From Candidatus Aminicenantota bacterium (GTDB taxonomy: Bacteria; Acidobacteriota; Aminicenantia; Aminicenantales; UBA4085), in contig PLMN01000025.1 of assembly GCA_003141555.1 (NCBI GenBank), positions 1 through 64,000 of the forward strand: a DNA stretch of 64,000 nucleotides. Reading direction: 5' to 3'. Made by a program: the position numbers and the translations under genes. A model generated the notes under the pieces. That model was not told where the DNA came from. It did no database searches and was given only the letters and a program-made list of their open reading frames with translations. Positions 510-8,996 of this stretch are shown one piece after another (within the stretch, counting starts at the first letter, position 1; every line of letters starts with the position of its first letter).

Positions 510-551
510 GGCCCGGCGCATGAGATTAGCCATCCACGGAGGAGACTGACC

Positions 552-1205
552 ATGAGCGAAAGCGAAGCTCCGAACAAGCACCACACGATCCTCTCGATCC
601 TCATCGCCTTGACGGCGGTCACGAGCGCGCTGACAAGCTGGTACGCCTCGCAGGTGGGCGGCGCCGCGTCGGGGCAGGACGGCAAGGCCATCACCGCGGC
701 CCTCGACGAGGCGGCGAGCGAAAGCGCCATCTCTTCGGAGATTTTCGGCTATTTGGTCAACGCCCGCCGGTTCCAGATCCATCGGGACAACTCCAAGGCC
801 GTCCGGGACGATGCGATGAAGAACGCCGCGGTCCCCGACCGGTGGCTCGACGAATGGCAGGGAGAAAGCATCCGGGCCCAGGCCCGGATCGGCGAGCTCG
901 ACCTGGATTTCCTCAAGACCGAAGGCGGGCGATGGACCTTCGACCGGGAACGCTATTATCAAACGCGCCGCAGCCAGATCGCCATGGAAAAGGCGCTCGA
1001 TCCGGCGCCCTTCGTGGAGCGCTCGGCGGTCAAGCGCCGGGAAGCGAATTTGCTGGTCTCGCTCAACGCCCTGTTCGCGGCGGCCATCTTCTTCTTCACC
1101 CTCGCCCTCAAGACCGAGTCGCGGAGCAAGCTTACCTGGACGGCCGCCGGCGGATTGATGTATCTGGCGGGGGCGGGCATCGCCCTCTGGCGCGTCCTGG
1201 GCTGA
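552..1205 (+). CDS. Conserved membrane protein resembling DUF4337-type proteins
   Basis: The 217-residue product starts at ATG 552 behind a GGAGGAG site (538-544). It has one hydrophobic segment near the N-terminus (about 11-30), a long hydrophilic helical middle rich in Ala, Glu and Arg, and two hydrophobic segments at the C-terminus (about 168-186 and 194-215). This two-end membrane layout resembles DUF4337-type proteins of unknown function; the family assignment is a guess from architecture. It is the first gene of a tight run of three (10-nt gaps) with a similar but larger membrane/TPR protein and a beta-barrel-like protein. No promoter of its own was found in the short gap after the methyltransferase remnant. 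Confidence 0.7.
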   Translation: MSESEAPNKHHTILSILIALTAVTSALTSWYASQVGGAASGQDGKAITAALDEAASESAISSEIFGYLVNARRFQIHRDNSKAVRDDAMKNAAVPDRWLDEWQGESIRAQARIGELDLDFLKTEGGRWTFDRERYYQTRRSQIAMEKALDPAPFVERSAVKRREANLLVSLNALFAAAIFFFTLALKTESRSKLTWTAAGGLMYLAGAGIALWRVLG

Positions 1206-1215
1206 GGAGACGACG

Positions 1216-2961
1216 ATGGAATCCAAGCCCATGAACCGCTCCCGGCTCATCCTGATGCTCAAGGACGACAAGACCTTCAAGACGACGGTGACCCTGATCC
1301 TGGCCGGGCTTACGATCGTGACGAGCCTGATCGTCATCTTCAACGTCCAGGCTTCGGCCCGCGGGTCGGCGGCCAGCCGGGACAGCCGGATCCTCGGCAT
1401 CCGCTATCTGACCCACCTCGACCGGTCCCAATGGGAATTCGCCGCCGAGAAGGACGCTCTCGATTTCTATAAAGAGCTGACCGGGTTGATGCTCCAGGCC
1501 GGGGCTTACGCGATGGGACCCGGCGCCCACGACGTCGTCTTTTACAATTTGAATCGGGACCGCCTGGACAGGGTCCGGGCGGTCCTAGCCGCCGAGGGGG
1601 AATTGACCCGGCCTCCGTATTTCAATCCGCGGACCGCCGGCGCCGACCTCCTTCAATACTACCTGGACAAGATCTTCATCCCCGCGGCCGAAATCCTGGA
1701 GCGCCAGGAACAGAAAAAGACCGAAGGCGGCTTCTGGGGATCGAAATCCGACTCTTATACCGCCGGTCTGGCGGTCATGGCCGTGGCTGTTTTCCTTCTA
1801 ACTCTCTCCCTGGTTCTTGGCGGGAAAATCCGATTCTTCATGGCCGGAGCGGGGCTCGTCCTCGTCGCGGCCGTGATCTCGATCGCCGCGGCCACGGGGA
1901 CGCGGGACTGGAGCGGCCCGGCGGACGAATCCATTCGGGAATACGCCCGCGCCTCGGGACTCGCGACCCGCGCTCAGATCATTTTCAACGCGACCGGGGA
2001 TTCCGCCGCCACGATCGCGGCTGCGGGAGAAGCCACGGCGAAGATCGATCGGATCCTCGCCCACGAGCCGCGGTATCGCGCCGCGATCCAGGTCCGATCC
2101 CGCCTCCGGATGCTCACGAGCGAGACCCTGTTTTACAGCGGCAAGACCGAAGAAAGCCGCCGGGAGCTGGAAAAGGCGACGGCCGATCTCGACACGCTCA
2201 TCCGCACCGGCCCGACCGACGGCTACCTGCATTGGTCGCGGGGATACGCGGAGTTTCTCCTGGGCCGCCGGGATGCCAGCCTGCGCTCGATTGGGCGGGC
2301 CCTCGAGCTCCTGCCCGATCAGGGATTCGCCCTGGGCGGGGTCAAGGCGGCTACGCTTATCACCAGTGGAAAGACCGACGACGCACGGGCCGCCCTGGAA
2401 ACGGCGATCGAATTCGCGGCCCGCAAGCCTCTGGCGTCCGATCCCATCTATTTCCGAACGCTCATCCAAAACATGGAGCGCTTTCAGGAGCTCACGCCGG
2501 TCGAAGGTCTTCCGGCTTACATCCGGCGGCTGAAGGAGGCCTCGGTCTCGCTGGCCGTCCTGAAGAAAAGCCACCCCCTCGGCGAAAAATCCGAGATCGC
2601 CCCGCCTCAGTTCGTGGCTCCGGTCTATGACAAGCTAGGGGACATTACCGATGTGCCGCCCTGCAATCGGTTCCCCAAATCCACGGCCCGGGCCTATTTC
2701 CTCCTCGAGCTCAAGGGGATGGAGAAAGGCCAGTCCATCGTCCGCAAAGTCTTCCGCCGCAACCCCGGCCAGCCGTTCTGGATCGAACAGCTCGTGCTCG
2801 GTCGGGCGGAGCATTGGGAAGGCCCGGCCGAAGCGCGACTCCTCGGCGACGTGGAAAACCCCATTCCCGAGGCCGGGCAGGTGTTGGCCTCAGGGGATTA
2901 TCGGATCGAAATCTACATCGAGGGCAACCTGAAAGCGACGAGCTTCTTCACCATCCTCTGA
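1216..2961 (+). CDS. Membrane protein with TPR-like C-terminal region
   Basis: The 581-residue protein begins at ATG 1216 (GAGGAGACGACG upstream). The first 230 residues repeat the layout of the preceding gene: a transmembrane segment at about 24-45, a soluble stretch with an Arg/Glu-rich helix, then two membrane segments at about 178-200 and 206-226. After this comes an extra-membrane region (about 235-430) with helical repeats rich in Ala, Leu and Tyr, such as the stretch around HWSRGYAEFLLGRRDASLRS, typical of TPR arrays. The C-terminal 130 residues look beta-rich and include a DUF2914-like pattern (an FPKSTARAYFLLELKGMEKG-type strand run ending FFTIL). I do not recognise a function. It may scaffold a complex with the proteins encoded on either side. 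Confidence 0.7.
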   Translation: MESKPMNRSRLILMLKDDKTFKTTVTLILAGLTIVTSLIVIFNVQASARGSAASRDSRILGIRYLTHLDRSQWEFAAEKDALDFYKELTGLMLQAGAYAMGPGAHDVVFYNLNRDRLDRVRAVLAAEGELTRPPYFNPRTAGADLLQYYLDKIFIPAAEILERQEQKKTEGGFWGSKSDSYTAGLAVMAVAVFLLTLSLVLGGKIRFFMAGAGLVLVAAVISIAAATGTRDWSGPADESIREYARASGLATRAQIIFNATGDSAATIAAAGEATAKIDRILAHEPRYRAAIQVRSRLRMLTSETLFYSGKTEESRRELEKATADLDTLIRTGPTDGYLHWSRGYAEFLLGRRDASLRSIGRALELLPDQGFALGGVKAATLITSGKTDDARAALETAIEFAARKPLASDPIYFRTLIQNMERFQELTPVEGLPAYIRRLKEASVSLAVLKKSHPLGEKSEIAPPQFVAPVYDKLGDITDVPPCNRFPKSTARAYFLLELKGMEKGQSIVRKVFRRNPGQPFWIEQLVLGRAEHWEGPAEARLLGDVENPIPEAGQVLASGDYRIEIYIEGNLKATSFFTIL

Positions 2962-2971
2962 GGAGGTCGAC

Positions 2972-4336
2972 ATGAAGGAACGACACGAGACTACGAAGCG
3001 CGGCCGCCGGCGAGGGCCGTTGGCCGGAATCGCGGCCCTGATCTTCGCCTTCGGCGCGGCCGGGCTCGCGGCGGAAGATCTCGGGACGGCCCTCGACAGG
3101 CTCGTCCGGCTCCTCGATGGGACGAAAAACAGTGAGGGGGCGCCCCTCCGTTTGTCCGCCGACCCGAAGGTCGCTTCGTTCCTGAAGGCCGTCGACGGGC
3201 TCCGGAGGATCGATCAGCGAATCGGGATCCTGAAGGCTTCCTTCTCGTTCGGCTATTCGGGGGACCGGAGCTATTCGGGAGACGATATCCGGGATTCGAA
3301 CCATCTCTTGAACGTCGACACGAATATCGTCAAGGACCGGTACCCGGACGCCCTGAAGTTCAGGACCTCGACCAAGCTCCTCATGAGCAAGGGCGCGCTC
3401 CAGAACGAGTCGTCCACGATCCTCCTGGCCCTCAACCATTACCTATTCCCCTTTCTCGAAGGGTATGTCTTCACCGAGAAGTTTTCGGATTCCTTCATGA
3501 GCATCAAGCAGCGCTACGAGATGGGCGCCGGCCTTAAGTTCGAGTACAATTTCGATCCCGTCCGGAGCGATCACGACGCGGACCCGGTTCGGACGCTCGA
3601 GGCCCTGACGCCGGCGGGATCCGATGCGCCGCCCAAGGCGCTCCGCCGGACCGCGGAGCTGGCCGAGAAGCGGTTCATGGACATCTTTCCCTCCCTCGAG
3701 GAAGGCTTCCTGCGCGCCCTCAAGGAGGCGGGGGTCTCGCCCGACGACCTGACCGGGATTTTCAGCTGCCTGGAGACCATGGAAAAGGTTTATGCCCGCC
3801 TAGATACGGCTCTCGCCAAGTCCCGCTCGTGGCTGACCGTGGGAGTCGCGTTCAGCGCCTTCTCCGAGGTCGAGCAGGACGAGATCGCGCCCTATTATTA
3901 CAGCCCGTCCGGCCAGAAGGTCTCGAAATCCTATCTCCTGGACCCGGAGCAGAGGTTCCGGTTCGTCATCCGGCCCTCCCTGGAGTGCATCATCGCCGAC
4001 GGCGTGGACCTCAGCTCGATGCTCTACTGCAAGCTGCCCCTGGGCGCCCCCTACACCAAGCTGATCATCCTCAATTCGGAAAACTCCTCGCAGAAGACGC
4101 GCTTCTATGATTGGCGGGTCGATTCGATCACCGACCTGAGGTTCGCCCTGGGCCGGAACATGTCCTGGGGAGGAGACATCTCCCTGACCCTGGAATACCA
4201 GTACCATTTCGACAACGCCCCGCCGGGGTTGCCCGAGACGCTCGCCGGGGTGACGTTCCAAGGCATGGGCTTGAAAAACACGGTCGCCGCCACCTCCCAC
4301 CAGTACTATATGCTGAAGTTCAACGTCGGGTTCTGA
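2972..4336 (+). CDS. Exported protein, probable outer-membrane barrel
   Basis: The 454-residue product has a basic start, a hydrophobic stretch at about 18-33 and an Ala-rich AAGLAAED site that fits a signal peptide cut near residue 34. A helical segment (about 35-80) is followed by alternating hydrophobic/polar strands. The last residues, YYMLKFNVGF, end in Phe after alternating aromatics, the usual signature for BAM-dependent barrel insertion. An insertion around 200-285 is helical. Start ATG 2972 has GAGGAGG at 2961-2967. It closes the three-gene operon begun at 552, whose other products are inner-membrane proteins, so the operon may span the envelope. No known family is recognised. Confidence 0.65.
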   Translation: MKERHETTKRGRRRGPLAGIAALIFAFGAAGLAAEDLGTALDRLVRLLDGTKNSEGAPLRLSADPKVASFLKAVDGLRRIDQRIGILKASFSFGYSGDRSYSGDDIRDSNHLLNVDTNIVKDRYPDALKFRTSTKLLMSKGALQNESSTILLALNHYLFPFLEGYVFTEKFSDSFMSIKQRYEMGAGLKFEYNFDPVRSDHDADPVRTLEALTPAGSDAPPKALRRTAELAEKRFMDIFPSLEEGFLRALKEAGVSPDDLTGIFSCLETMEKVYARLDTALAKSRSWLTVGVAFSAFSEVEQDEIAPYYYSPSGQKVSKSYLLDPEQRFRFVIRPSLECIIADGVDLSSMLYCKLPLGAPYTKLIILNSENSSQKTRFYDWRVDSITDLRFALGRNMSWGGDISLTLEYQYHFDNAPPGLPETLAGVTFQGMGLKNTVAATSHQYYMLKFNVGF

Positions 4337-4387
4337 GGCCGACGGGCGACCTGAACGGCGCCTCTCGGCCCCGGCGGAGGAAACAAC

Positions 4388-5584
4388 TCAGAAAAGGATC
4401 TTGATCCCGCCCGTGATCTGGAAGAAAGACGGATTCACCGGGAGGGTCGTTGTATAGGACGCGATGTAGCTGACGTCATCGGCCGTGACGGCCAACTGCT
4501 TGATCGTGCCGGCGAACATGCCGTCGTATGAGCCCGGCGTGAACGTCCAGCTCAGATTCTTCAAGCCGCCGTCGTAATAGCGCGCTTCGAGCGAAAGCGC
4601 CAGGCTGGACGACAGCTGATAGCTGATCCCGAGGCCCACGTTGAAGCCGATGCCCGTCCAGGACGTCATGGGAATCTCCGCCGGAATGGGCAGCGCATCC
4701 ACGTACTGAGAGACCGTATCCCCGACCTGCTGTTCCCAGGTCACGCCGTAGCCGACGGTCCCGCTCGCCTGGAACGAGCAGCGGAACAGGGTCAGCCCTC
4801 CGAAGAGGCTGTATGTCAGGGAGCCTTCGCCGAACCGACCGACCGCATCCAAGCTGAAGACGGTCGCCGACAGGCTGCTCTTCCCGGTCCAGCTCGCGCT
4901 CTGGTCGAAGGTGCCGCCGCCGGCCGTCGAGTCCCAGGTTGCGGAGAAGGTGAAGTCCGAAGCGGTCGCGACCGCGGGACTCAGATGGCCGGCCACGACC
5001 TGGACGCCGAAATTGGGCGTGAAGAAATAGGTGAACGACCCGCCGTAGGACAGCCCGCCCTTCGCCGGGACGGAGATGTCCGTGTTCTCCGCGACATCCG
5101 TCAGGAGATCGGCATACCATTCGCTGTAGTAGTTCGCCGGCCCCATTTTGAAAGTCGACGCGTAGCCGCCGAAAAGGCCGATCTCTATCTTCGAGAAGGG
5201 CCCGGCGGCCGGGGCGGGGGCCGGCGGGACGGGCTCGGCGGCCGGATGCTGAGCCGCGGCCGGGACCGCGGCTGGGGCCGGCGCCGGGACGGGCGCCGGG
5301 ACGGGCTTCCCATCCTCCCCGATCTCGACGACGATCGTCTCGCTCAGGTAGCCTTGTTTATTGTCGGGGAGCGCGACAAGATACCATGCGCCGACTTTCT
5401 TGATCACATCGAAGACGCGGTCCCTCTCCGCAATCAGGATCACGTCGGCAGCCGAGGACGGCGCGCTGCGGACATTGCCCCGAAAGACCGTGACCTTGAC
5501 CTTCGACGCGAGTCCGGGTCCGGCCGCCAGGGCGGCGGATGCGAGCAGCAGGAAGACAAGAGCGCAATATAGGGCTTTTTTCAT
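4388..5584 (-). CDS. Secreted SH3-like domain protein with C-terminal beta-barrel
   Basis: Translation is set to start at ATG 5584, which opens a clean signal peptide (MKKALYCALVFLLLASAALA) and has GAGG eight bases upstream; a longer frame to 5683 adds an implausible Arg-rich leader. The 398-residue product has, in order: signal peptide (1-20), a bacterial SH3 domain (about 25-90, with the NVRSAPSSAADVI and WYLVALPDNKQGYL motifs), a Pro/Ala linker (about 98-130), then a beta-strand-rich region ending GGIKILF, as in outer-membrane barrels. The SH3 part may bind peptidoglycan in the periplasm while the barrel anchors in the outer membrane; this is inferred. It converges on the upstream operon and is divergent from accB. 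Confidence 0.75.
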   Translation of the reverse strand: MKKALYCALVFLLLASAALAAGPGLASKVKVTVFRGNVRSAPSSAADVILIAERDRVFDVIKKVGAWYLVALPDNKQGYLSETIVVEIGEDGKPVPAPVPAPAPAAVPAAAQHPAAEPVPPAPAPAAGPFSKIEIGLFGGYASTFKMGPANYYSEWYADLLTDVAENTDISVPAKGGLSYGGSFTYFFTPNFGVQVVAGHLSPAVATASDFTFSATWDSTAGGGTFDQSASWTGKSSLSATVFSLDAVGRFGEGSLTYSLFGGLTLFRCSFQASGTVGYGVTWEQQVGDTVSQYVDALPIPAEIPMTSWTGIGFNVGLGISYQLSSSLALSLEARYYDGGLKNLSWTFTPGSYDGMFAGTIKQLAVTADDVSYIASYTTTLPVNPSFFQITGGIKILF

Positions 5585-5665
5585 GCGGCAAACCTCACCG
5601 CACATCATCCCCCGCTCTCTCCGGCGTGTCAATCCCCCGGCGCCCGCCCGAGCGTTCCCGCCAAG

Positions 5666-5695
5666 TTGACTTCGCCCGGCCAATGCTGTTAACGT
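5666..5695 (+). promoter_or_regulatory. Candidate sigma-70 promoter for accB-accC
   Basis: TTGACT (5666-5671) and TAACGT (5690-5695) are separated by 18 bases in the AT-rich gap between two divergent genes. The -35 is strong and the -10 weak. The predicted leader before accB is about 70 bases. Confidence 0.4.
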
Positions 5696-5769
5696 ATATC
5701 TAATTTCCGGCAGAGAGATCGCAAGGCAAAGATAACAAAGGCTTTCTCGATTCCGACGAGGAGACGCCC

Positions 5770-6246
5770 ATGAGCGCGCAGATCGATTTCGACGAAATCA
5801 ACCGCATCATCAAAATCCTGGACGACAATAGCCTGAACCAATTCGAGCTGGAGATCGAGGGTTTCAAGATCAAGATCGCCCGGAATGCGCCGGCCCCGGC
5901 CGCTCCCGTCCCCGCGGCCGTCTCCGCGCCTTCGAGGCGGGCGGGCGATTCGGCGCCGGCCGCAGCCGCTCCCCGGCCCTCCGAGGCGGCGGCCGCGGCG
6001 GGCCTGCACTACGTCACGTCGCCCATGGTGGGGACGTTCTACCGCGCCCCCGCGCCCAATGCCCCGGCTTTCGCCGAGGTCGGCGATCCCGTCCATAAGA
6101 CTCAGACGCTCTGCATCATCGAAGCCATGAAGCTCATGAACGAGATCGAATGCGACTTCGACGGGATCGTCAAGGAGATCCTCGTCGAGAACGGCAAGCC
6201 CGTGGAGTACGGCCAGAGGCTCTTTTCCATAGTCCCCCAACCCTAA
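5770..6246 (+). CDS. accB: Biotin carboxyl carrier protein of acetyl-CoA carboxylase
   Basis: The 158-residue protein carries the biotin that shuttles carboxylate between biotin carboxylase and carboxyltransferase in the first step of fatty-acid synthesis. An N-terminal helical region (1-38, with [20 protein letters not shown]) matches AccB, followed by an Ala/Pro-rich flexible linker (about 40-77) and a C-terminal biotinyl domain with the invariant EAMKLM motif; Lys121 is the biotinylation site. Length is normal for the family. The start ATG at 5770 has GAGGAG upstream. accC follows after six bases, so the two are co-transcribed. The carboxyltransferase genes accA and accD are not in the window. 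Confidence 0.95.
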
Positions 6247-6252
6247 GGCGCC

Positions 6253-7605
6253 ATGTTTTCGAAGATCCTCATTGCCAACCGCGGCGAGATCGCCCTCCGG
6301 ATCCTCCGGGCGGCCAAGGAGCTAGGGATCCGGACGGTGGCCGTCTACTCCGAGAGTGACCGGACCTCGCTCCATACCCTCCTCGCCGACGAAAAGTTCT
6401 GCATCGGCCCGGCCCGGGCCATGGACAGCTACCGGAATATCGCCAACATCCTGACCGTAGCCGAGCTGACCAAGGCCGACGCCATCCATCCCGGATACGG
6501 CTTCCTGGCCGAGAACGCCCGCTTCGCCGAGATCTGCGAGAACGCGGGGGTCACCTTCATCGGCCCGCCCCCCTCGATCATCCGCCTGATGGGCGACAAG
6601 AACCGCGCCCGCCAGGAGATGATCCGGGCCAAGCTGCCCGTCATCCCCGGAAGCGACAAGATTCTCGAGGAAATCGGCGAGGCCAAAGCCGCGGCCCAGA
6701 AGATCGGCTTTCCGGTCATCATCAAGGCGGCGGCCGGCGGCGGGGGGAAGGGGATGCGGATCTGCCGCACGCCCCAACACCTCGAGGAGCAGTTCCCGAT
6801 CGCCCGGAACGAGGCCAAGGCCGCCTTCGGCGACCCGTCCGTTTATCTCGAAAAATACCTGTCCGGAGCTCATCACATCGAGATCCAGGTCGTGGTCGAC
6901 AAGAAAGGCACGATCATCGTCTTCGGCGAGCGCGACTGCTCGGTCCAACGCAAGTATCAGAAGCTGATCGAGGAATCGCCCTCGCCGTTCGTCGACGAGC
7001 GGCTGCGGAAGAGGATGATGGGGGCCGTCGAGAGCGCGGTCAAGGCCATCGGCTACCAGAACGTGGGCACGTTCGAGTTTCTCGTGGACGAGAACAAGAA
7101 GTACTACTTCATGGAGGCCAACACCCGCATCCAGGTCGAGCACCCCGTCACCGAGAGCGTCTACGGGATCAACCTGGTCAAGGCCCAGATCCGGGCGGCG
7201 GCCGGGGAGAAGGTCACCTTCCCCTTCGAGCTCCAGATGAGGGGCCACGCCATCGAATGCCGGATCAACGCCGAGGATCCGACGACGTTCATCCCCTCGC
7301 CCGGCCGGATCGATTTCCTGGTGCTGCCGGGCGGCGAGGGCATCCGGGTGGACTCGGCCGCCTACGGCGGCTGGGTGATCCCGCCCGACTACGATTCCCT
7401 GATCGCCAAGATCATCGCCTACGCGCCCAACCGGCTGCTCGCCATCAAGAAAATGCAGACGGCGCTCGAGATGACGACCATCGTCGGGGTTAAAACCAAC
7501 ATCCCCCTTCACCTGACCATCCTGGCCAATTCGGACTTCCAGGGCGGCACATACAGCACCCAGCTCATGGAGAAGCTCCTCCCGCCGAACGGAACGCCGA
7601 AATAG
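6253..7605 (+). CDS. accC: Biotin carboxylase subunit of acetyl-CoA carboxylase
   Basis: The 450-residue enzyme carboxylates the biotin of AccB using ATP and bicarbonate. It shows the N-terminal pre-ATP-grasp domain (KILIANRGEIALRILRAAKE), the ATP-grasp glycine loop AGGGGKGMRI at about 161-170, the EANTRIQVEHPVTE catalytic segment near residue 290, and the C-terminal biotin carboxylase domain (RINAEDP onward). Length is typical for a stand-alone AccC, so this is not a pyruvate or propionyl-CoA carboxylase fusion. It sits six bases behind accB. Pairing with acyl-CoA carboxylases other than AccAD cannot be excluded, because no carboxyltransferase is nearby. Confidence 0.96.
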   Translation: MFSKILIANRGEIALRILRAAKELGIRTVAVYSESDRTSLHTLLADEKFCIGPARAMDSYRNIANILTVAELTKADAIHPGYGFLAENARFAEICENAGVTFIGPPPSIIRLMGDKNRARQEMIRAKLPVIPGSDKILEEIGEAKAAAQKIGFPVIIKAAAGGGGKGMRICRTPQHLEEQFPIARNEAKAAFGDPSVYLEKYLSGAHHIEIQVVVDKKGTIIVFGERDCSVQRKYQKLIEESPSPFVDERLRKRMMGAVESAVKAIGYQNVGTFEFLVDENKKYYFMEANTRIQVEHPVTESVYGINLVKAQIRAAAGEKVTFPFELQMRGHAIECRINAEDPTTFIPSPGRIDFLVLPGGEGIRVDSAAYGGWVIPPDYDSLIAKIIAYAPNRLLAIKKMQTALEMTTIVGVKTNIPLHLTILANSDFQGGTYSTQLMEKLLPPNGTPK

Positions 7606-7615
7606 GCGGGGGTAT

Positions 7616-7678
7616 TCGTCATCGCAAGGAGCCCCGGGCCGCATCAGATGCGGTAGCGGGATGAGGCGGCGATCCCCT
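7616..7678. repeat. Small interspersed repeat with a hairpin between converging genes
   Basis: The 85-base gap between accC and the minus-strand lectin-like gene contains CGTCATCGCAAGGAGC followed by a perfect hairpin CCGCATCAGATGCGG (7639-7653) and GCGGGATGAGGCGGCGATCC. The opening and closing phrases resemble the widespread bacterial TCATTGCGAGGAGC...GAAGCAATCCC-type interspersed repeat. No T-run follows, so it is not a standard terminator. Confidence 0.4.
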
Positions 7679-7692
7679 TCCGTTCGAGAGAC

Positions 7693-8214
7693 TTACTTCG
7701 CCTCGTGCTTGAGGTAGATTTTCACGTCGAACGCGCCGTCGTTGTCGTCCGTCAGGTTCTCGTTGACCCTGAAAAGCAGGCGGCCGGCCGCGGGGAAGAC
7801 GACGCGGTTCTCCTTGCCGATGAAGAACATCTCGCCGATGTCCCGCTCGATTTTTTCGCCGCCCCGATTGGCCTCGACGAACTCGATTTTTTCCCGGACT
7901 TTGCAGATCAAGGCGCCCAGGTTCTGGTCAAGGAGCGGCTGCTGCAGAGTCCTCATGGCCAGACCCTCCGGACCGCAGGAAGCGATGGGATTGTCTTTCT
8001 GGAGGGAAACCGTGCCTTCCGCCTGGAAATAGTATTCCTGGCCTTTCAGGACGTTCAGGCCCGAATCCGTCCAGGCGGCGGCCCCGGCAACCTGGACTTT
8101 GCCCACGAGGATGAAATCGGCGGGAGCTTCCTGCCCTCCACCGGGGGTGGCACTCGCCATCGACAGCAGGACGCCGCTCAAAATGACGGCGGCGGCCCGG
8201 GAATCCCCTCTCAT
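7693..8214 (-). CDS. Secreted LecA/PA-IL-like carbohydrate-binding domain protein
   Basis: The 173-residue product has an N-terminal hydrophobic segment (about 7-23) ending near TPGGGQ, consistent with a signal peptide. The rest matches the single-domain galactose-binding-like fold of the PA-IL type in pattern: WTDSGLNVLKGQEYYFQAEG early, then GPEG, NLGALICKVREK in the middle, and a late GRLLFRVNENLTDDNDGAFDVKI strand set. In the family this fold binds sugars through calcium; the exact ligands here are unknown. It starts two bases after the stop of the phosphatase gene, so it is the second gene of that operon. No catalytic motif is seen. Confidence 0.65.
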   Translation of the reverse strand: MRGDSRAAAVILSGVLLSMASATPGGGQEAPADFILVGKVQVAGAAAWTDSGLNVLKGQEYYFQAEGTVSLQKDNPIASCGPEGLAMRTLQQPLLDQNLGALICKVREKIEFVEANRGGEKIERDIGEMFFIGKENRVVFPAAGRLLFRVNENLTDDNDGAFDVKIYLKHEAK

Positions 8215-8216
8215 GA

Positions 8217-8996
8217 TCAGGACCTTTTGAGAATCGAAAGCATCGCCTCGTGGATCCGCCCGTTGCTTGCGCAGACCTCGGGCTGGTAGATGTCGACCGG
8301 CTCTCCCCGAAAATCCGTGATCCGGCCGCCCGCCTCCCTCAGGATCACCGCTCCGGCGGCCGTATCCCAGGGGCTGAGCTTCATCTCCCAGAAGCCGTCG
8401 AACCGGCCGCAGGCGACGTAACAGAGGTCGAGAGCCGCGGAGCCGCAGCGGCGGATGGCCTGCGTCCGGACAAGAAACTCGTCGTGATGGGCGATGTTGG
8501 CCCGCGTTTCCCGGATGTCATAGGGAAACCCGGTGGCGAGCAGGGCCTTGTCCAGGTCGCCGATCGGCGAGACCCGGATCGGGGCCTCTCCGAGAAAGGC
8601 GCCGCCGCCGAGATCTCCCCGGAACGTCTCGCCGCTGATCGGGTTGTAGACGACGCCGCAGACGAGCTCCCCGCGCCGCTCCAAGGCCAGGGAGACGCAG
8701 AACACCGGGAAGCGATGGGCGAAGTTCGTGGTCCCGTCGAGCGGATCGAAGACCCACCGGAATTCCGCGCCGCTCTCCTTGCGGAGCCCCTCCTCGGCCA
8801 GGAAATCGTGGTCCGGGAACCGGGCCGAGAGGCGCCGATGGATGAGCTCCTGGGAGGCCAGGTCGGTCTCGGTGACGAGGTTGACGATGCCCTTGAAGCG
8901 GACTTCGCCGGCCCGGGCATAGTCGGTCCGGAGGATGTCTCCGGCTTCGCGGACGACGTCCAGGGCCGCTTCGAGATATATCGAATACTCTCTCAT
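8217..8996 (-). CDS. suhB: Inositol monophosphatase family protein
   Basis: The 259-residue product contains the metal-binding signature of the family: the FLAEEG segment, then WVFDPLDGTTNFAH, and near the C-terminus WDTAAGAVILREAGG. Members hydrolyse phosphate from myo-inositol phosphates or related sugar phosphates with magnesium. I place the start at ATG 8996 because it gives the usual family length; a TTG at 9035 in frame would add 13 residues with no good ribosome site. The predicted promoter leaves almost no untranslated leader. The lectin-like gene follows two bases downstream on the same strand. SuhB is the nearest named homologue, but the substrate cannot be read from the sequence. 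Confidence 0.85.
   Translation of the reverse strand: MREYSIYLEAALDVVREAGDILRTDYARAGEVRFKGIVNLVTETDLASQELIHRRLSARFPDHDFLAEEGLRKESGAEFRWVFDPLDGTTNFAHRFPVFCVSLALERRGELVCGVVYNPISGETFRGDLGGGAFLGEAPIRVSPIGDLDKALLATGFPYDIRETRANIAHHDEFLVRTQAIRRCGSAALDLCYVACGRFDGFWEMKLSPWDTAAGAVILREAGGRITDFRGEPVDIYQPEVCASNGRIHEAMLSILKRS

Follow-up and report, generated by a model that had tools for sequence, protein, structure and literature searches.

A co-conserved gene pair encoding predicted inner-membrane proteins, one with a TPR extension, in Candidatus Aminicenantota

Organization of the locus

The window analysed here is the first 64 kb of the 135-kb contig PLMN01000025.1 (genome G000) of a Candidatus Aminicenantota bacterium. 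Near its start lie three genes, all on the plus strand and separated by gaps of 10 and 10 bases (Table 1), and the coordinates and layout given for them in the first-pass annotation proved to be correct. An AGGAG-like site precedes each of genes 1, 2 and 3, and all three reading frames were chosen as coding by a codon-usage gene caller, which preferred a later start for gene 3. Comparison with G001, a genome of the same genus, indicates purifying selection on genes 1 and 2 (dN/dS 0.23 and 0.34, respectively). The promoter scan returned promoters at chance level, and the terminator scan returned 11 predictions against 6.1 +/- 3.0 expected; the latter lie mostly within genes, and neither set was used.

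At the contig start, positions 174-509 hold a C-terminal remnant of a type IIG restriction enzyme-methyltransferase, of which 111 aa can be read (PADLOC; E value 3e-13) and which has a GC content of 41%. Homology to G001 starts only at position 548, after this remnant and shortly before gene 1.

Table 1. Positions of genes 1 to 3, of the predicted parts of gene 2 and of the segment that differs from G001.
Feature	Position	Strand	Description
Gene 1	552-1205	+	ORF, 217 aa; predicted inner-membrane protein: N-terminal TM helix continuing as a long helix, a soluble part made of helices and a beta hairpin, and a TM hairpin at the C terminus
Gene 2	1216-2961	+	ORF, 581 aa
Gene 2, residues 1-229	1216-1902	+	Membrane module, element order as in gene 1 (AF2, hhalign)
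Gene 2, residues 237-447	1924-2556	+	TPR solenoid, putatively periplasmic
Gene 2, residues 462-581	2599-2961	+	Seven-strand beta-sandwich domain (AF2, lower confidence)
Gene 3	2972-4336	+	ORF, 454 aa; predicted to be exported, probable outer-membrane beta-barrel; lineage-specific neighbour outside the conserved pair
Segment	2964-5656		Gene 3 and a minus-strand SH3/barrel gene; absent from the same place in the congener G001 (blastn)

A membrane module common to genes 1 and 2

In the products of both genes 1 and 2, an N-terminal transmembrane (TM) segment is followed by some 135-150 aa of soluble sequence and then by a hydrophobic hairpin. The third TM segment exceeds the Kyte-Doolittle threshold in four of six gene-2 proteins and in four of seven gene-1 proteins, the window's own gene 1 not being among the latter four, and the hairpin helices are present in the AlphaFold models of both window proteins. 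The AF2 models, each of which was built on five sequences, have a pLDDT of 74.6 and a pTM of 0.44 for gene 1 and a pLDDT of 75.7 and a pTM of 0.63 for gene 2. The gene 1 model contains helices at residues 6-90 and 96-115, a beta hairpin at 121-130, and helices at 132-146, 151-187 and 190-216. The module of gene 2 is modelled with helices at 8-99 and 108-126, short strands near 136-143, and helices at 145-200 and 205-229. Structure prediction had been suggested as a check in the first-pass annotation, and it returned the same order of elements in both proteins, the difference being that gene 1 has two helices (132-146 and 151-187) in place of the single helix 145-200 of gene 2.

Profile comparison by hhalign aligned the two families over the part from the hairpin to TM2 and TM3 (probability 62%; E value 7.6e-5), with a probability of 31.5% in a variant using fewer sequences. 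The score of 35.5 compares with a maximum of 33.2 among 100 within-block column shuffles and 17.4 for the reversed profile; one shuffle thus came near the real score, and the match between the profiles is modest (31-62%). Together with the models, it makes a relationship of genes 1 and 2 as paralogues moderately supported. The initial description of two membrane proteins of matching layout in one operon, the second of which carries a TPR extension, is upheld.

None of the Aminicenantia gene-1 proteins matched a Pfam family above the cut-off, and neither an NCBIfam nor a PADLOC family was found for gene 1; no named family covers it. The comparison of gene 1 with solved structures gave no significant match, and no plasmid-borne relatives of gene 1 were found.

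The TPR and sandwich parts of gene 2

Downstream of the module, the AF2 model of gene 2 shows TPR helices over residues 237-447, followed by a seven-strand sandwich at 462-580. The former fit the tandem helix-turn-helix repeats of 34 residues that characterise TPRs. The best single Pfam TPR match of the window gene has an E value of 1.3e-5, below the cut-off, while the G118 homologue has Pfam TPR matches above the cut-off and the family profile matches TPR structures of designed as well as natural proteins, with E values as low as 1e-21. The TPRs of the window gene are therefore real but divergent. Searches of gene 2 against Pfam, NCBIfam and PADLOC returned TPR models only, and these weakly; its matches among solved structures fall mainly in the TPR part, and in the structure comparison nothing stood out beyond TPR-like helical repeats and one designed helical protein. 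The Pfam scan of the beta-sandwich piece was empty. Charge counts around TM1 follow the positive-inside pattern, with the N terminus cytosolic. With three TM helices, this pattern would place the TPR and sandwich parts in the periplasm.

A solenoid in that compartment might suggest a periplasmic chaperone or assembly helper: gene 2 would be a TPR protein anchored in the membrane and escorting exported proteins, and gene 1 would be its partner there. PpiD/YfgM or BamD-type TPR factors play a comparable role, and in the window an exported-protein gene directly follows gene 2. However, domain scans of the genes revealed no chaperone or PPIase domain, the distribution of the pair is rare and patchy, and both gene 1 and the FHA domain described below would be left unexplained. 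We regard this reading as rather unlikely.

Conservation and genomic context of the pair

In a set of 99 related genomes, relatives of gene 1 occur in six and matches to gene 2 in eleven, of which five are full length and six cover TPR stretches only. Matches confined to the TPRs were excluded as homologues, namely these six and those in G370, G430 and G465. All five genomes with a full-length gene 2 are among the six with gene 1; the remaining one is G005, whose contig runs only three bases past gene 1. Across the class, the gene-2 profile found a full-length match in 5 of 142 genomes, and a sixth match (G465) covers TPRs only. In a sample of 396 genomes from the phylum, the same profile matched five, with long matches in G000, G008 and the distant G118 and TPR-only matches in G370 and G430, while the gene-1 profile matched four (G000, G005, G008 and G118). 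Among named relatives, those closest to gene 2 come from metagenome-assembled genomes labelled Candidatus Aminicenantes (three) or Acidobacteriota (one).

Wherever both genes are visible they are adjacent and on the same strand (six of six genomes), with spacings of 10, 10, 11, -4, 4 and 15 bases in G000, G001, G008, G010, G023 and G118, respectively. G118 belongs to another class, which is represented by two genomes in the collection; of these two, only G118 has gene 2 of the pair. Its pair shares 22-29% identity with the others, and the persistence of the linkage at this distance argues that it does not merely reflect recent shared descent. We conclude that the pair is a real module, conserved together and so far without a name. 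As full-length gene 2 is rare and patchy (5 of 142 genomes), the pair is not a core envelope function.

The surroundings of the pair vary. In G001 it is flanked by nagA and accB, an unremarkable position in the chromosome. In G005 and G010, gene 1 is preceded by an AddA-like helicase gene; in G008 and G010, the pair is followed by a flavodoxin gene; and in G118 a PilT-family ATPase gene and a DksA-type zinc-finger gene lie upstream. No neighbour is common to all of the loci, and thus no pathway is indicated.

Two of these regions merit description in their own right. In G001 (L024, 1-3850), two phosphosugar-mutase-like genes, the second of them a glmM match, together with nagA directly precede gene 1, with an overlap of 4 bases; this amino-sugar context is found in G001 only, the other loci being without it. 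In G118 (L039, 6286-6750), the ORF with the DksA/TraR zinc finger upstream of the pair encodes 154 aa, and by eye its C-terminal part looks like the beginning of a PP2C/SpoIIE-type phosphatase, cut short.

The patchy distribution, along with the restriction enzyme tail just upstream in the window and its low GC, could also point to an accessory island, mobile or defence-linked, in which the pair would include a membrane effector. Single gene-1 members gave matches to DUF4231 (E value 0.013) and SLATT_1 (E value 2.9), although both are at noise level. Against such an origin, the GC content of the pair equals that of its surroundings (61-66%), its position in G001 is an ordinary one, and PADLOC has no match for genes 1-3. 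We consider this explanation very improbable. A known anti-phage defence protein was likewise rejected, as PADLOC matched neither genes 1-3 nor gene 1 of G118.

An FHA domain in the G118 homologue

Gene 1 of G118 encodes 326 aa and has an N-terminal FHA domain (PF00498; 65.3 bits, E value 6.7e-18). It is the only one of seven gene-1 proteins with this domain, and Pfam finds none in gene 1 of the window. FHA domains are readers of phosphothreonine, and the location at the N terminus fits a topology in which this end is cytosolic. This points to a possible coupling between the pair and Ser/Thr kinase signalling. The cytosolic tail of the Aminicenantia gene-1 proteins is short, and a phospho-input therefore cannot be general. 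If the reading of the pair proposed below is right, the FHA-bearing homologue offers a concrete handle on the role of the pair, i.e., which kinase phosphorylates what.

Gene 3, a loosely associated barrel candidate

The first-pass annotation described gene 3 as an exported, beta-barrel-like protein. This is plausible, if not proved, from a signal-like hydrophobic segment at the N terminus and from its strand pattern; no Pfam family was found. The sequence has 11 amphipathic 9-mers against 6.8 +/- 2.1 in 500 shuffles (P 0.04), its two relatives give P 0.08 and 0.03 in the same test, and a C-terminal phenylalanine is present in all three family members. NCBIfam and PADLOC searches also returned no family for gene 3, and the comparison with solved structures gave no significant match. 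The DUF481 outer-membrane proteins, to which gene 3 was likened on inspection of the sequence, are likewise exported with a strand-rich pattern. That assignment found no support: none of the three family members matched PF04338, a profile comparison with two DUF481 members only gave a probability of 0.3%, and there is no DUF481 match anywhere in G000.

By blastn, window positions 548-2963 match G001 3843-6258 and positions 5657-7610 match G001 6320-8281. Because identity stops at 2963 and resumes at 5657, G001 lacks at this place both gene 3 and the minus-strand gene after it, and its gene 2 is directly followed by accB-accC. G001, which is listed as 98% complete, has no relative of gene 3. 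The segment containing gene 3 has the GC content of its neighbourhood (60-66%), and the difference may reflect a gain in the lineage of the window or a loss in G001. The minus-strand gene (4388-5584), missing together with gene 3 at the G001 counterpart site, encodes an exported protein that has an SH3-like domain at its N terminus and whose C-terminal part resembles an outer-membrane barrel, all matches being below the cut-off.

The initial proposal of a fixed three-gene complex reaching from the inner to the outer membrane is unsupported, since gene 3 adjoins the pair in the window genome only. Conservation of the three-gene order in relatives, on which that proposal had been made to depend, was not found: all five other genomes with the pair (G001, G008, G010, G023 and G118) lack an adjoining gene 3, the contig of G023 ending soon after gene 2. 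As a conserved unit, the complex was rejected. A true three-part complex could still be imagined, with the pair residing in the inner membrane, the TPR arm across the periplasm and gene 3 as an outer-membrane barrel that other genomes encode elsewhere. In the window the three genes form a single apparent transcription unit, with a 10-base gap and a good ribosome site before gene 3, and the three genomes with gene 3 (G000, G008 and G010; 3 of 99), two of which are from one genus, all have the pair. Yet no relative of gene 3 was found in G001, G005 and G023, which have the pair or gene 1. Moreover, both relatives, 31-37% identical to gene 3, come from that one genus, and in G008 (L029, 945-2015) and G010 (L030, 8228-9307) each is a single gene divergent from tldD, on a different contig from the pair. 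Such an assembly is decidedly unlikely, and close spacing of 10 bases in a single genome is not enough to make the barrel gene a member of a complex.

Proposed function of the pair

We propose that the pair encodes a hetero-oligomeric inner-membrane module of paralogous three-TM subunits, with a periplasmic TPR/sandwich binding arm and, in the FHA version, a signalling input; a probability of roughly 0.45, i.e., somewhat below even, seems appropriate. For genes 1 and 2, gene order, co-conservation, the predicted order of elements and the FHA domain of one homologue are observed; topology, hetero-oligomerisation and signalling are all features that we infer. Both subunits would derive from one duplicated module of three TM segments and a long helix, gene 1 being the bare module and gene 2 the module plus a periplasmic arm, a TPR solenoid and an Ig-like sandwich, whose binding partner would be a protein or the wall. 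As a pair, the long helices might transmit the binding of the arm across the membrane, or anchor it. In the FHA version, the cytosolic end would read threonine phosphorylation and so link phospho-signalling with a binding event in the periplasm. Gene 3, as a probable outer-membrane barrel, would have joined or stayed in the transcription unit only in the lineage of the window and may be a client or accessory outside the core.

A more far-reaching version, which we regard as a long shot, is a complex of the Acidobacteriota, as yet without a name, that signals or couples force across the membrane and is built on duplicated long-helix membrane modules. Cytosolic threonine phosphorylation would, in the FHA version, control its periplasmic TPR/Ig arm, and lineage-specific outer-membrane barrels like gene 3 would be recruited as its outer end. 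Should the proposed hetero-oligomeric module prove correct, the envelope of the Aminicenantes, about which very little is known, would gain a strictly paired membrane module that has no name so far. No long-standing question becomes directly testable through the pair.

Comparison with known systems

No published description of the pair was found, as judged by title or abstract. Membrane proteins of the DUF4337 family have a layout of TM segment, soluble part and TM hairpin, which gene 1 shares. Membership of this family found no support at the level of Pfam profiles, as none of the seven gene-1 proteins matched PF14235; any relation would be remote. With generic TPR proteins (the structures of the CadC periplasmic domain, MamA and LbcA), the likeness of gene 2 is that of a TPR or similar helical-repeat fold; it differs from them in its membrane part, its extra C-terminal sandwich and its conserved partner gene.

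The nearest conceptual parallel is the Glt apparatus of Myxococcus, which spans the envelope and comprises the inner-membrane FHA protein GltG, the TPR proteins GltD/E/C/I and the outer-membrane proteins GltH/GltA (PMC3169522). The likeness thus lies in combining an FHA protein of the inner membrane with TPR proteins that are exported and with barrel-like proteins. The present pair differs in that gene 1 encodes three TM segments with an FHA domain in one of seven members, and in that the TPRs of gene 2 are fused to a second membrane module. GltG is described there as bitopic with a TonB C-terminal domain (PMC3169522), whereas gene 1 of neither the window nor G118 has a TonB C-terminal match; on this account the pair is likened to Glt, not assigned to it. 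By analogy with that apparatus, the pair may work like a Glt-style trans-envelope linker.
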